Positions 3,713-40,451 of a DNA stretch of 64,000 nucleotides are shown here, one piece after another. Each line of letters begins with the position of its first letter. Position 1 is the stretch's first letter. The DNA is from Desulfurobacterium atlanticum. Its GTDB lineage: Bacteria > Aquificota > Aquificia > Desulfurobacteriales > Desulfurobacteriaceae. Below the pieces are notes generated by a model, which was not told the origin of the DNA, did not search any database, and saw nothing but the letters and a program-made list of their open reading frames with translations. Made by a program: the position numbers and the translations under genes. The stretch covers positions 1-64,000 of the forward strand of contig NZ_FZOB01000008.1 in assembly GCF_900188395.1 (NCBI RefSeq). Reading direction: 5' to 3'.

Positions 3713-4348
3713 ATGAAAGGTTTATTAATTGTAATCTCTGCACCTTCAGGCACAGGAAAGACAACCCTTGTAAATATGCTGATGAAAGAGATTCCAACCC
3801 TTGAATTTTCAATCTCATGCACCACCAGAAAACCAAGACCGGGAGAAGTAAACGGTAAAGATTACTACTTCCTTTCTTTAGAAGAGTTTGAAAAAAAGAT
3901 AGAGAACAATGAACTCCTTGAGTGGGCAGAGGTTTATGGCAACTTTTACGGCACTCCAAAAGACAAAGTTTTACAGGCTCTTAAAGAAGGAAAGGACATA
4001 CTCCTTGACATAGACACTCAAGGAGCCCTTCAGGTTAAGAAAAACTATCCGGACGCCGTGCTTATATTTATACTTCCTCCTTCTCTAAAAGAGCTTGAAA
4101 AGAGATTAAAAAAAAGAGGAACTGAAGACCCTGAAACGATAGAAAGAAGACTTTTGATAGCTCATAAAGAGATAAGCCTTGCAACAAAATATGATTACAT
4201 AATAGTAAACGACCAGATTGAAAGAGCTTTTGAAAATCTTAAATCTATCATTACAGCTGAAAGGTGGAAAACTCATCGGATCAAAGAACAATTTGATGAA
4301 ATTATTAATGATAAGGAGATGTTAGAACTTTTAAAAAGCGGGGCTTAA
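3713..4348 (+). CDS. gmk: Guanylate kinase
   Basis: 211 residues, normal length. It phosphorylates GMP (and dGMP) to GDP with ATP in the cytoplasm, linking purine synthesis to GTP and c-di-GMP pools. The P-loop SGTGKTTL is at about residues 12-19, followed by the GMP-binding segment SCTTRKPRPGEVNGKDYYF and the lid-region sequence RLKKRGTEDPETIERRL. It lies directly after yicC in the same operon. The TAA stop falls in the loop and right arm of the bidirectional terminator shared with the convergent tig gene. Confidence 0.96.
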   Translation: MKGLLIVISAPSGTGKTTLVNMLMKEIPTLEFSISCTTRKPRPGEVNGKDYYFLSLEEFEKKIENNELLEWAEVYGNFYGTPKDKVLQALKEGKDILLDIDTQGALQVKKNYPDAVLIFILPPSLKELEKRLKKRGTEDPETIERRLLIAHKEISLATKYDYIIVNDQIERAFENLKSIITAERWKTHRIKEQFDEIINDKEMLELLKSGA

Positions 4349-4361
4349 GCCCCGCTTTTTT
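4338..4361. terminator. Bidirectional intrinsic terminator between gmk and tig
   Basis: A perfect seven-base-pair stem, GCGGGGC (4338-4344) with GCCCCGC (4349-4355), closes a TTAA loop. It has an A-run on its left and a T-run on its right, so it can end transcription from both convergent genes. The gmk stop codon lies inside it and the tig stop codon is at its right border. Confidence 0.9.
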
Positions 4362-5670
4362 ATTGTTCTTCTTTATCTTCTTCCTTCTTCTCTTCTTTAA
4401 ATTCAACTTCTTCAATCTCAGCAAGTTCAATCAATCTATCAAGAGCTTTCTGTCTTAAAACATCCTGCTTTACCATAGGCATAAGGTTTCTCTCTTCAAG
4501 AGACTGTCTTGCAAGAACAGTATCTCCATTAAAAGCCATGTTTGCAAGCTTTTCAATTTCTTTCTCTATATCTTCATCCGTTACTTCAAGACCTTCAAGC
4601 TCAGCTACCTTCTCTAGAAGAAGTTTGACCTTTACTGTTTTTTCCGCAGTCGGACGCACCATTTCAGCTATCGTTTGAGGCGAAATTTGCTTTACATCAA
4701 CACCAAACTGAGCAAGCCTCATTATCTGATTTTCGGCCTGAGCCTTTATCTCCATACTTAAAAGGGATGAAGGCACAGGAATTCCCACTTTTTTAAGTAG
4801 CTCTTCAACTATCTTATCTTCCACTTCTTCCTGCTGTCTTTCAGCTTCTGCTTTTTCAAGGTCTTCTCTTATTTTTGACTTAAGCTCTTCTACTGTTTCA
4901 ACACCAAACTTCTTTGCAAACTCATCATTTAACTCTGGAAGTTTCTTCTCCTTAACCGCAAGAACCTTAAACTTCAAAGTAACATCCTTACCAGCAGCAT
5001 CTCCATATTTTTCATCTTCAGGAGCTTTAAAAGAAACTTCACCCTCTTCACCCTTTTTCTTACCAATAACCGCTGAGTCAACTTCTGACCACAGCTGATT
5101 TTCTCCAAGAACAGCTGTAACTTCTCCTTTCTTCTCTTCACCATCAATTATTGCAACATACTCAAGGTCAACAAGATCCCCTTTCTGGGCAGGTCTATCA
5201 ACCTCTTCAAACTTTGCTTCTCTGTTAAGTAAAGATTCAAGAACCTGCTCCACATCTTTATCTTCTATTTTCCTAACACTTTTTGTTACCTTTATCCCTT
5301 TATAATCCTCAGGTTTAAGATCTATTTCCGGCTTAACCTCAAAAATTACTACACACTCAAGTGTATTATTTCTATCATCATACTTTAAATCTTCAATGTA
5401 AGGCTCTGAAATCAAAACAAGATTTGCTTCTTTTATTCCTTTATCAAGCTCCTTTGGGACAATGGCTCTTACAAGATTCTCCTCAATCAAATCTTTATAC
5501 TGCTTTTTAATAATATTTACAGGAGCTTTTCCTGGTCTGAATCCCGGTATTTTTGCGTTTTTTCTTATCTCTTTACAGATATTCTCAACCTCTTTCTTAA
5601 CAACTTCAGGTTCAGCTACAATTTTCGCTTCGTAAACAACACCTTCTCTCTTACTTACTGTACAGGCCAT
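4360..5670 (-). CDS. tig: Trigger factor (ribosome-associated chaperone/prolyl isomerase)
   Basis: 436 residues, typical for the family. The ribosome-binding signature GFRPGKAP is at about residues 43-50 in the N-terminal domain. A middle FKBP-like isomerase domain (about 160-245: KGDLVDLEYVA, EVSFKAPEDEKYGD) and a long helical C-terminal chaperone domain follow. It docks near the ribosome exit tunnel and shields nascent chains. The tail is very acidic (EEVEFKEEKKEEDKEE). AAGGAGG is placed six bases before the ATG. It follows argG on the same strand with a 15-base gap. The usual neighbours clpP and clpX are absent here. Confidence 0.95.
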   Translation of the reverse strand: MACTVSKREGVVYEAKIVAEPEVVKKEVENICKEIRKNAKIPGFRPGKAPVNIIKKQYKDLIEENLVRAIVPKELDKGIKEANLVLISEPYIEDLKYDDRNNTLECVVIFEVKPEIDLKPEDYKGIKVTKSVRKIEDKDVEQVLESLLNREAKFEEVDRPAQKGDLVDLEYVAIIDGEEKKGEVTAVLGENQLWSEVDSAVIGKKKGEEGEVSFKAPEDEKYGDAAGKDVTLKFKVLAVKEKKLPELNDEFAKKFGVETVEELKSKIREDLEKAEAERQQEEVEDKIVEELLKKVGIPVPSSLLSMEIKAQAENQIMRLAQFGVDVKQISPQTIAEMVRPTAEKTVKVKLLLEKVAELEGLEVTDEDIEKEIEKLANMAFNGDTVLARQSLEERNLMPMVKQDVLRQKALDRLIELAEIEEVEFKEEKKEEDKEEQ

Positions 5671-10824: not shown

Positions 10825-11385
10825 ATGATAGATACAGAAAGAATAGAAAAAGCTGTTAGAGAAATCCTTCTAGCCATAGGAGAAGATCCAGACAGGGAAG
10901 GGCTTAAAGATACTCCAAAACGTGTTGCAAAAATGTATAAAGAAGTCCTTGCAGGATATGATGACTCCCCGGAAAACCACTCTGTCCTGTTTACAGAAAG
11001 ATACGATGAAATGATTATAGTTAAAGATATTCCTTTCTTCTCCATGTGCGAACACCACATGCTTCCCTTTTTTGGAAAGATACATATAGCTTACATCCCG
11101 GGTGAAGATAGAGTCACAGGGCTTTCCAAACTTGCAAGAATAGCAGATGTTTACGCCAAAAGACTTCAGCTGCAGGAAAGAATGACTGAACAGATAGCTT
11201 CTGCAATAATGGAAAAATTTAACGCGAAAGGGGTTATGGTTGTGGTGGAAGCCCAGCACCTTTGCATGATAATGAGAGGAGTTAAGAAACCTGGCTCATT
11301 TACCATAACAAGTGCAATAAAAGGTATGCTTAGAAAAGAACCTACAAGAACGGAAGCACTTTTCCTTATAAAGGGTGGGAAATGA
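10825..11385 (+). CDS. folE: GTP cyclohydrolase I (type IA)
   Basis: 186 residues. It converts GTP to 7,8-dihydroneopterin triphosphate, the entry step to folate (and often queuosine precursors). The zinc and active-site segment is CEHHMLPF, with Cys75 and His78, and the third zinc ligand lies in [10 protein letters not shown]. The motifs SLQ-like [13 protein letters not shown] and the C-terminal [10 protein letters not shown] fit the family. GAAGGAGAAAG precedes the ATG. The stop overlaps the start of the TPR lipoprotein gene by four bases (ATGA), so it is co-translated with it. Confidence 0.96.
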
Positions 11386-12182
11386 AAAAACTTTTAGCTT
11401 TATCATTTACAGTTCTGATTTTAAACTCCTGCGCAACTGCACCTCAAGAGAAAAAACAGATTCAACCACCTCCTATTCAGGAAACAAAAACGTTTACAAG
11501 AAAAGAGAAAGCTGACGGATTTTACAAAATAGGGGTTTCATATCTCCAGCTTGGAGACATTCCACTGGCGTTAAATTATCTCTTCAAAGCAAAGGATCTT
11601 AATCCGAAAGACCCCAAAATCTATAATATGATAGGCTACACCTTCTATGTAAGAGGAGATGTAAAACGGGCAAAGAAGTATATAAACAAAGCTCTAAACT
11701 TAGACCCTAAATTTTCCGAAGCGTATATGAATCTTGCAACTATTGCAGAAGAGGAAGGAAATTTAAAAGAGGCCAAAAAATATTACCTGAAAGCACTTGA
11801 AAACCCACTTTTTCTTAACCCGGAAGTTGCCTATTACAAACTTGCCCTTATAGAAGAGAAAGAGGGAAACTTAACACTTGCAAAAAGGCATTTAACACTT
11901 GCAATAAGGAACAACTTAGACTTTGCTCCTGCGTATGTTGAACTTGGCAAACTGCTTGAAAAAGAGGAAAAACAGGAAGAAGCAAAGGAACTTTACTATC
12001 AAATAATAAAAAGGTTTCCCAAGCTTCAAGAAGCCTACTACCGCCTTGCTTTAATATATTTAAATGAGAAAAATTTACCTCTTGCAGAAAAATTTATTAA
12101 GAAATGTTATAAAATTAATCCTGATTCCAGATGGGGTATAAAAGCGCAAGAGGTGATGGTTAAATATGGCTTTGAAAAATAA
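11382..12182 (+). CDS. TPR lipoprotein, PilF/PilW-like
   Basis: 266 residues beginning with a lipoprotein signal peptide: basic start, hydrophobic stretch and lipobox LNSC with Cys18, so the mature protein should be lipid-anchored in the envelope. The rest is about five to six TPR units (for example [25 protein letters not shown], seen in shorter pieces throughout). The arrangement resembles PilF/PilW pilotins that help assemble type IV pilus secretins, but no pilus genes are in the window, so that role is only a possibility. It is overlapped at both ends by its neighbours (4 bases with folE, 17 bases with the next gene), suggesting tight co-expression. Confidence 0.8.
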
Positions 12183-13014
12183 GTTCCTTATCTTAATATC
12201 TGTTTTTCTCGGGCTTTTTCTTGCATTTATAGCTGCCGGAATTCTCTTTCTGTATAAACCGGACTTTTTTCTCTCATTAATTTTCGGAAAGAAGCCAATA
12301 GAGATTACAGAAAAAAAAGAAACTCAAAAACTGACAAAAAAGGAGCTTTTCCAGATAGAAGAAATTGTCACAAACAACCTGTCTATGATTAAAGAAGGAA
12401 TAACAATCCATCCTGCCATAATTTTCAAAATAGCTGAAACTGAAAACTCAACTGACGCTTACGTGCTTACACTTTCAGAACTTGAGTGGCCATTTGTAAA
12501 AACTATAGTAAGAGGCGGAATAACTCTTGACAGAGTGAAAAAAGTTTACAAATGTTCCGATATCTTTATACTGGATTTTGATACAAAAGGAATGGTCGTT
12601 CCACCTGTCAAAAGTGGACCTTTTATAGACAAAGGAGTTATAGTTCCGGGATTTGAAGGACAAAAACCGATAGTGTCTCCATTTTACGGTGATTGTCAGG
12701 AAATTTCAGGATTTGTGTTTAACCAGTTTGGTGATTTTTCGGGAGTTTGTAAAAGTCAAGATTTTATCCCTGCATCCTGGATAAACAATCTTAATCTATC
12801 AACGTGCTCAATAATTTACGGTAAACCTGCCCAGACAGAAAATTCAACAACAAACGATACTGAAAATACGACCGAAAATGAAACAGAAAACAGAACACTT
12901 GAATCAGAAAACATAACCAACAATACCAAACCAGATAACCAGACTTTAGAATTCAACCAGACATACATCGGGGAAAATAGCACTGGCAATTTCACAACCA
13001 ATCAAACCGAATAA
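12166..13014 (+). CDS. Single-anchor envelope protein with an Asn-X-Thr-rich tail, unknown function
   Basis: 282 residues, family not recognised. One membrane helix (about residues 7-30) is followed by a soluble, presumably periplasmic, domain of about 180 residues with four cysteines (near KCSDIF, GDCQE, GVCKS, STCSI) that could form disulfides. From about residue 221 to the end (12826-13011) the composition changes sharply: 62 residues dominated by Asn, Thr and Glu, with 12 Asn-X-Thr triplets out of 13 asparagines (NST, NDT, NTT, NET, NRT, NIT, NNT, NQT twice, NST, NFT, NQT). This looks like a dense N-glycosylation target or a disordered hydrophilic tail. It overlaps the TPR lipoprotein by 17 bases and is 38 bases from the TPR/GAF gene. 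Confidence 0.8.
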   Translation: MALKNKFLILISVFLGLFLAFIAAGILFLYKPDFFLSLIFGKKPIEITEKKETQKLTKKELFQIEEIVTNNLSMIKEGITIHPAIIFKIAETENSTDAYVLTLSELEWPFVKTIVRGGITLDRVKKVYKCSDIFILDFDTKGMVVPPVKSGPFIDKGVIVPGFEGQKPIVSPFYGDCQEISGFVFNQFGDFSGVCKSQDFIPASWINNLNLSTCSIIYGKPAQTENSTTNDTENTTENETENRTLESENITNNTKPDNQTLEFNQTYIGENSTGNFTTNQTE

Positions 13015-38945: not shown

Positions 38946-40451
38946 TTATCTTAGAAGCTGAAGAACCATCTGTGGAAGCTGATTCGCCTGAGCAAGCATA
39001 GCCATACCAGACTGCATAAGAGTCTGCTGTTTTGTAAAGTTTGCCATCTCTTTAGCAAAGTCAACGTTTCTGATACGTGATTCAGCTTCAGATGTTTGTG
39101 TAGCTGCAAAGTCGTTGTTATCAATAATAGCCTGAAGATTTATTTGAATAGAACCAAGATCTGATCTTAAAGAATCCACTTTCTTTATTGCTCCATTTAA
39201 TATCTTTAATGCATCCTCTGCAGAAGTATTATTAGTAACATCAATCGCCTGTAAAGAGGTAATATTGAAAGTTCCTGTTGTTATACCTAAGTCAGCATCA
39301 ATACCACCCGTAGCACTTATAGTTATAGCTTCTGGTGACTCAAGAGTTATAGTTCCTATAGAATGTATATAACCTGTAGTATTTGTATCATCAACTACGG
39401 TTGACGTAGCTGCCCCAAACTTGGCAAGATCTATTGACGTATTTCCAGATGTAGCTCCAGGTGAAACGGAAAAATCTAAGTTAAAGGTTCCTCCATTTTG
39501 AGTATAAAGAACAAGTTTTGTCCCTGTTGAATCTGCTTTTGCGAAAACTCCTGTATTATTAGATACTCCATTAATTAGACTTATCATAGCATTCAAATCA
39601 TACCCTTGGCCACTTGCCAAATTTATAGTTGCATTGCCTTCTGGCCCACTAATAGTAATTGTGGCAGAATCATCACTTCCTATAGAAATTGTTCCAAATT
39701 CAACAGTACCTGTAATCTCATTTTTAGCAGTTGCAGTCACTCCTTTTACATTTTCATTAATATTCTGAGCTATCTTAGCAGCATCTAAATCATCTCCATC
39801 AGCAAAACCTTGAACTACAGATGTTCCATTGATTATTAAATCTTCACCAGAATTAAATTGAGTAGGATCTGAACCTGTATAAGTTCCAGTATTAGCAGAA
39901 GTAATTAAAGGATTACCATTGTTTGATTTAACCAAAGCTGCACCTAAATCTTGAGGAAGAGCACTAGCTATAGAAATGGAAAGAGTCTGCCCAGCTCTTG
40001 GACCAAAATGAATAACTTTGTCTTGAAATGTCCCATCCAAAAGTTTTATACCGTTAAACTCAGCAGTAGATGCTATTTTTAAAATAGCATCTCTCAATTT
40101 TTCTATATCTGTTTGTAATGCCGCTCTTGCATTCGGATCATTGGTATCATTTGCAGCCTGTTCAGCTTTTGTGTACATAGCTGTCAATTTATCATAGATT
40201 TGTGAAAGGGAACTTTCAGCTATCTGAGCTGCAGAAATACCATCCTGGGCATTTCTTGAACCTTGATTTAAAGCTTTAGCAACAAGTCTCAACTGGTCAG
40301 CGATAAAAAGACCAGCAGCATCGTCTTTAGCAGAGTTAATTCTGTAACCTGTAGAAAGTCTCTCTAAAGATGTGTTCAAGTTACGCTCTGTTTTAAGAAG
40401 GTTAACATGTGTAAACTCTGCCTGAAAGTTGTAGTTAATCCTGAGGGACAT
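38946..40451 (-). CDS. fliC: Flagellin
   Basis: 501 residues. N-terminal D0/D1 (about 1-170) with LNTSLERLSTGYRINSAKDDAAG and QLRLVAKALNQGSRNAQDGISAAQIAES. C-terminal D1/D0 (about 405-501) with RIRNVDFAKEMANFTKQQTLMQSGMAMLAQANQ and the terminal leucine/arginine. The middle 230 residues are a variable, Thr/Ser/Gly/Asn-rich surface domain that makes the protein larger than minimal flagellins. Expression is directed by the sigma-28 promoter at 40491-40517 and GGAGG before the ATG. It is the only flagellin gene in the window and leads into flaG-fliD-fliS. Confidence 0.97.
   Translation of the reverse strand: MSLRINYNFQAEFTHVNLLKTERNLNTSLERLSTGYRINSAKDDAAGLFIADQLRLVAKALNQGSRNAQDGISAAQIAESSLSQIYDKLTAMYTKAEQAANDTNDPNARAALQTDIEKLRDAILKIASTAEFNGIKLLDGTFQDKVIHFGPRAGQTLSISIASALPQDLGAALVKSNNGNPLITSANTGTYTGSDPTQFNSGEDLIINGTSVVQGFADGDDLDAAKIAQNINENVKGVTATAKNEITGTVEFGTISIGSDDSATITISGPEGNATINLASGQGYDLNAMISLINGVSNNTGVFAKADSTGTKLVLYTQNGGTFNLDFSVSPGATSGNTSIDLAKFGAATSTVVDDTNTTGYIHSIGTITLESPEAITISATGGIDADLGITTGTFNITSLQAIDVTNNTSAEDALKILNGAIKKVDSLRSDLGSIQINLQAIIDNNDFAATQTSEAESRIRNVDFAKEMANFTKQQTLMQSGMAMLAQANQLPQMVLQLLR

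Follow-up and report, generated by a model that had tools for sequence, protein, structure and literature searches.

A sequon-dense disordered tail in Desulfurobacterium atlanticum, a probable multi-site acceptor for a PglB-type oligosaccharyltransferase

The P0001 locus and its predicted product

The window analysed here (the whole stretch of 64,000 nucleotides from Desulfurobacterium atlanticum, a heat-loving member of the Desulfurobacteriaceae) carries the gene for a protein that we call P0001. The features of the locus, in order, are as follows.

10825-11385, + strand: GTP cyclohydrolase I, a conserved upstream neighbour of P0001 in 22/22 genomes
11382-12182, + strand: lipoprotein with TPR, similar to PilW/Tgl at scores under the curated cut-offs, adjoining P0001 in 22/22 genomes
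12166-13014, + strand: P0001, a predicted membrane-anchored protein of 282 aa, with homologues in 22/22 Desulfurobacteriaceae genomes and in 0/39 other genomes searched
12169-12255, + strand: N-terminal membrane helix, residues 2-30 (hydrophobic stretch; helix in the AlphaFold2 model)
12337-12822, + strand: folded core, residues 58-219, a trypsin/HtrA-like beta-barrel by fold-level similarity only
12826-13011, + strand: disordered C-terminal tail with 12 N-X-T (sequence count; pLDDT about 40)

Neither Pfam nor NCBIfam contains a known domain that matches P0001, and its 21 relatives give single weak matches only. The family has ten invariant positions, four of which are cysteines (130, 177, 195 and 214). 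P0001 possesses one N-terminal hydrophobic helix, preceded by a lysine and followed by the four invariant cysteines, an arrangement compatible with a C-terminus on the outer side of the membrane; the cysteines themselves would fit an oxidising periplasm. In an AlphaFold2 model built from 22 sequences the core has a confidence mostly above 90, and from residue 226 onward the chain is predicted to be disordered and therefore accessible.

When the core was searched with Foldseek, the protease domains of HtrA, DegS and DegP ranked first (E 2e-4), with a TM-score on the target of up to 0.58 for the comparison with HtrA/DegS. As in these S1C proteases, a trypsin-like barrel is predicted in P0001 to sit behind a single N-terminal anchor. 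In contrast to them, P0001 has four invariant cysteines but no PDZ domain, no GNSGGP-type nucleophile motif in its core and no profile similarity to the HtrAs of Desulfurobacteriaceae (hhalign probability 0.24%). Those HtrAs have GNSGGPL where P0001 has CQEISGFVFN and most relatives have C-x-D-N-G-F-V-F-N, the stretches having been paired by eye. Because the profile comparison is negative and the motif is missing, an active HtrA was ruled out and we use "degenerate trypsin fold" at the level of fold only: the core looks like a trypsin-fold domain that is, by appearance, catalytically dead. A Foldseek comparison with viral proteins yielded matches that were weak and in many cases to polyproteins with chymotrypsin-like proteases, which are consistent with a trypsin-like fold and add no information.

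The tail (residues 221-282, PAQTENSTTNDTENTTENETENRTLESENITNNTKPDNQTLEFNQTYIGENSTGNFTTNQTE) contains among its 62 residues 13 asparagines, 16 threonines and three serines. Twelve of the asparagines (226, 230, 234, 238, 242, 249, 252, 258, 264, 271, 275 and 279) stand in N-X-T and none in N-X-S, a recount identical to that of the first-pass annotation, which had judged the density to be far above chance. Composition shuffles of the tail (n=200,000) bear this out, with a mean N-X-T of 3.19 (sd 1.40), a maximum of 10 and not one reaching 12. The residues at −2 of the twelve sequons are, in order, T,T,T,T,T,S,I,P,E,G,T,T, so that the earlier count of a single acidic −2 residue also holds. The codons are mixed for both asparagine (AAT 7, AAC 6) and threonine (ACA 7, ACC 5, ACT 3, ACG 1); the tail is therefore not a simple DNA repeat, and a DNA microsatellite was ruled out as its origin. 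Within a first sample of the host genome (448 predicted proteins) the second-best protein had 5 N-X-T per 60 residues, and in a larger proteome sample the only proteins after P0001 to reach 6 per 60 were its own relatives.

An STT3/PglB-type gene in the host genome

Most of what is known of N-glycosylation in bacteria comes from Campylobacterota and some Desulfovibrio. Our search of papers available without subscription found no relevant report of N-glycosylation for Desulfurobacterium or its family, nor any of an oligosaccharyltransferase for Desulfurobacterium. The first-pass annotation had taken the tail to imply such an enzyme, and a profile search of the host genome (G000; 1.74 Mb, 99.7% complete) indeed found one STT3/PglB-type oligosaccharyltransferase of 695 aa, encoded outside the 64-kb window at G000:C1:163982-166069. 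This protein passes PF02516 (47.5 bits, cut-off 24.5) and has four PDB matches—the PglB entries 3rce, 5ogl and 6gxc, plus 3aag, a general glycosylation pathway protein—with a best E of 7e-18. Since its 99 bits fall below the cut-off of 1300 for the NCBIfam PglB equivalog NF050801, it is a PglB homologue that this narrow model does not class as an orthologue; the NCBIfam archaeal STT3 model gives 26 bits, also below cut-off. The catalytic and metal-binding residues of C. lari PglB (D56, R147, D154, D156 and E319, plus the WWD motif; PMC7226087) all have equivalents, namely D53, R174, D181, D183, E307 and WWD at 455-457. By family and residues the protein is a candidate for transferring a glycan to the asparagine of N-X-S/T. 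The equivalent of Arg331, which contacts the −2 acid, is missing, and pairwise alignment places Thr319 there.

The further suggestion that a relaxed, archaeal-like enzyme would be needed was not supported. The PDB matches are to PglB and the NCBIfam score is 99 bits for PglB vs 26 for the archaeal model, which ruled out an archaeal-type oligosaccharyltransferase. Nor is one required, because PglBs indifferent to an acid at −2 have been published from bacteria, the relaxed Desulfovibrio enzymes accepting minimal N-X-T sites without Asp/Glu at −2 (PMC4894442).

The host STT3 gene closes a glycan cluster of ~26 kb in which every gene lies on one strand and which encodes an initiating sugar transferase (Bac_transf), family 2, 4 and 9 glycosyltransferases, a ManC-type protein, UDP-galactopyranose mutase, a Wzx-type flippase and the products of rmlB, rmlC and rmlA. 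This cluster could also make a surface polysaccharide, and its link to N-glycans is therefore by position only. Scattered through it (G000:C1:134000-161000, L049-L051) are small adjacent gene pairs, many of whose members start with MKVRLTDEE or similar and contain IFGSR; by eye they look like MNT/HEPN-type nucleotidyltransferase toxin-antitoxin pairs. In the congener G001 the neighbours of the STT3 gene encode two family 2 glycosyltransferases, a sulfotransferase and a flippase. The sulfotransferase gene (4015-4872 within G001:C1:815001-830000, L169) lies between the glycosyltransferase genes and those for the flippase and STT3, a position hinting at a sulfated glycan in this sister species. 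Overall, STT3 is present in 14/22 Desulfurobacteriaceae genomes and in 52/136 genomes of Aquificota, the phylum that includes this family.

N-X-T in the relatives of P0001 and in exported proteins

Extended P0001 tails occur in six genomes (the host and five relatives) belonging to two genera, and all six genomes have STT3. Pooled, these tails hold 39 N-X-T vs 12.1 expected (20,000 shuffles, maximum 24), while N-X-S, at 3 vs 5.8 expected, is not raised. Each tail taken singly shows the N-X-T excess at P 0.03 or below (P 0.045 for that of G003 when its boundary is slightly shifted). Within a genus the tails are 29-52% identical and the cores 54-87%. In the comparison of relatives that the first-pass annotation had proposed, the five related tails keep the N-X-T register and their remaining sequence drifts. 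In the eight genomes lacking STT3 (one of which, G013, is 62% complete) the P0001 orthologue stops shortly after the last cysteine, with no extended tail, and even the cores differ, with a mean of 0.88 sequons vs 2.36 in orthologues from STT3-positive genomes (one-sided P 0.007, kinship ignored). Some STT3-positive genomes (g2, g3, g4 and g7) have no extended tail, and G005 has no N-X-T excess in exported proteins within its sampled portion, so STT3 does not imply a tail; and since the long tails are limited to two genera, the association of tail and enzyme represents few independent events. In another genome a TPR-containing putative lipoprotein (G007:C2:94283-95119, L097), distinct from P0001, carries at its C-terminus a short sequon tail, SENETENNTENGTG, as if sequon tails arose repeatedly in Desulfurobacteriaceae.

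For a broader view we sampled about 860 kb of the host genome and 40-320 kb from each of ten relatives, calling ORFs crudely and sorting the proteins into classes by an equally rough Kyte-Doolittle topology criterion. In STT3-positive genomes, N-X-T in exported proteins stands at 1.48x expectation (CI 1.18-1.79; 1.42 without P0001), N-X-S in the same proteins at 0.85x and N-X-T in cytoplasmic proteins at 0.93x. In STT3-negative genomes exported N-X-T is at 1.07x, slightly above cytoplasmic (P 0.036), and the direct comparison of exported proteins between the two groups of genomes gives P 0.05. Windows with at least four sequons per 60 residues occur in eight proteins, all exported and all from STT3-positive genomes, as against 0/1,518 non-exported proteins (P 3e-8) and 0/112 exported proteins of STT3-negative genomes (P 0.054); at three or more per 60 residues the two exported groups differ with P 0.009. 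The excess is carried by about eleven proteins, comprising lipoproteins, minor-pilin-like proteins and P0001.

Among the host genes, a one-strand run encoding minor-pilin-like proteins (G000:C1:53109-57029, L045) has 8, 5, 3 and 4 N-X-T, and two of these proteins have prepilin N-terminal motifs; this richness in sequons makes parts of the type IV pilus likely additional acceptors. A flagellin encoded in the window (38949-40451, − strand) has 8 N-X-T vs 4.2 expected. Bacterial flagellin normally bypasses the periplasm, and for this reason its sequons were left out of the evidence.

These data bear on a reading that sees in the tail just a Thr/Asn/Glu spacer of low complexity that grew from T-E-N-x repeats, its N-X-T register being a by-product and nothing being glycosylated. 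The P0001 tail does have a period-4 T-E-N-x rhythm with seven Asn pairs 4 apart, T-X-N is likewise raised (n=8), and the tails are disordered and changing fast; since T-X-N is an imperfect control for such tandem tails, a composition-based expectation was chosen over it. However, repeat growth sits poorly with the mixed codons, with five other tails that keep the register without sharing the repeat unit, with the lack of any rise in N-X-S and with the confinement of sequon-dense stretches to exported proteins of STT3-positive genomes, and we regard it as unlikely. Less probable still, and in our judgement improbable, is a mucin-like spacer modified mainly on Thr/Ser by O-glycosylation with the asparagines incidental, which the 16 threonines and 3 serines would allow but which leaves unexplained the strict N-X-T register, the missing N-X-S and the absence of such tails in genomes lacking STT3.

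As to the acceptor rule, exported sequons in STT3-positive genomes have an acid at −2 in 10.7% of cases vs 12.5% for other asparagines, and hence no preference. In the exported proteins of G000, G001, G005, G007 and G011, with the P0001 family left out, Asp/Glu occupies −1 in 22.4% of N-X-T vs 13.7% for other asparagines (P 0.001, five positions tested), which makes a −1 acid a possible lineage-specific acceptor preference.

Probable role of the tail and relation to known systems

We infer that P0001 is probably an inner-membrane-anchored periplasmic protein whose disordered tail is a multi-site acceptor for the PglB-type oligosaccharyltransferase. It would consist of the N-terminal helix, a disulfide-bearing trypsin-fold domain and the acceptor tail. 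After export of P0001, STT3 would transfer a lipid-linked glycan, of which the adjacent cluster is the probable source, onto several of the twelve N-X-T asparagines, giving a hydrophilic glycan brush that would act as a spacer or shield for the anchored domain. A sequon-dense tail and a matching STT3 in one genome make it probable that the tail forms a brush densely coated with sugar. The sites are probably not all occupied, because many are only 4 residues apart and twelve sites at a spacing of ~4-5 residues may obstruct each other; glycosylation itself, the structure of the glycan, the number of occupied sites and the function as a brush belong, with the orientation, to the conjectural part of this scheme. 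Both the presence of STT3 and conservation of the register had been set beforehand as tests capable of refuting the proposal, and neither did so: the multi-site N-glycoprotein of the first-pass annotation thus stands as a proposal, and its archaeal-like enzyme falls away as unneeded.

The system belongs to a known kind, of which it is a further case, and what sets it apart is an array of sequons within the disordered tail of a bacterial protein. With the Campylobacter PglB system it shares an enzyme of the single-subunit STT3 type carrying equivalent catalytic residues, putative periplasmic acceptors and possible lipid-linked glycan genes nearby. It differs in the low sequence similarity of the enzyme (PDB E 7e-18), in Thr319 opposite Arg331, in acceptors with no preference for a −2 acid and with N-X-T rather than N-X-S, and in the absence of a recognised pgl-type locus in the host genome. 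PglB homologues have been noted in Aquificae (Hydrogenivirga; PMC4894442). The relaxed Desulfovibrio PglBs described in the same paper come from another phylum, and the D. gigas enzyme retains the Arg331 equivalent whereas the host STT3 does not; no sequon-array acceptor like the P0001 tail is described for them.

A parallel outside the bacteria is the S-layer glycoprotein of Sulfolobus acidocaldarius, likewise a thermophile surface protein dense in N-glycan sites (predicted ones in P0001), in which one site per 30-40 residues was called remarkable and every observed site was occupied (PMC2948927). There an archaeal AglB acts on a folded domain, whereas here a PglB-type enzyme would act on a disordered tail with about one sequon per 5 residues; were its sites to carry glycans, the tail would by far surpass that S-layer in density.

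More tentatively, some Aquificota may combine a PglB-type enzyme having its own rule (Thr at +2, indifference to an acid at −2 and perhaps an acid at −1, [DE]-N-x-T) with disordered C-terminal tails that have evolved into dense arrays of N-glycan acceptor sites on several proteins of the envelope. We think this reading possible although on balance doubtful. If true, these tails would be a bacterial counterpart of sequon-rich stalks. Because close relatives have gained or lost STT3, the acceptor rule can be put to the test, and oligosaccharyltransferases that are thermostable and free of a −2 rule would be of interest to glycoengineers. Taken together, the co-occurrence of the enzyme, possible donor genes and acceptors in a thermophilic phylum represents the genomic traces of a working system.
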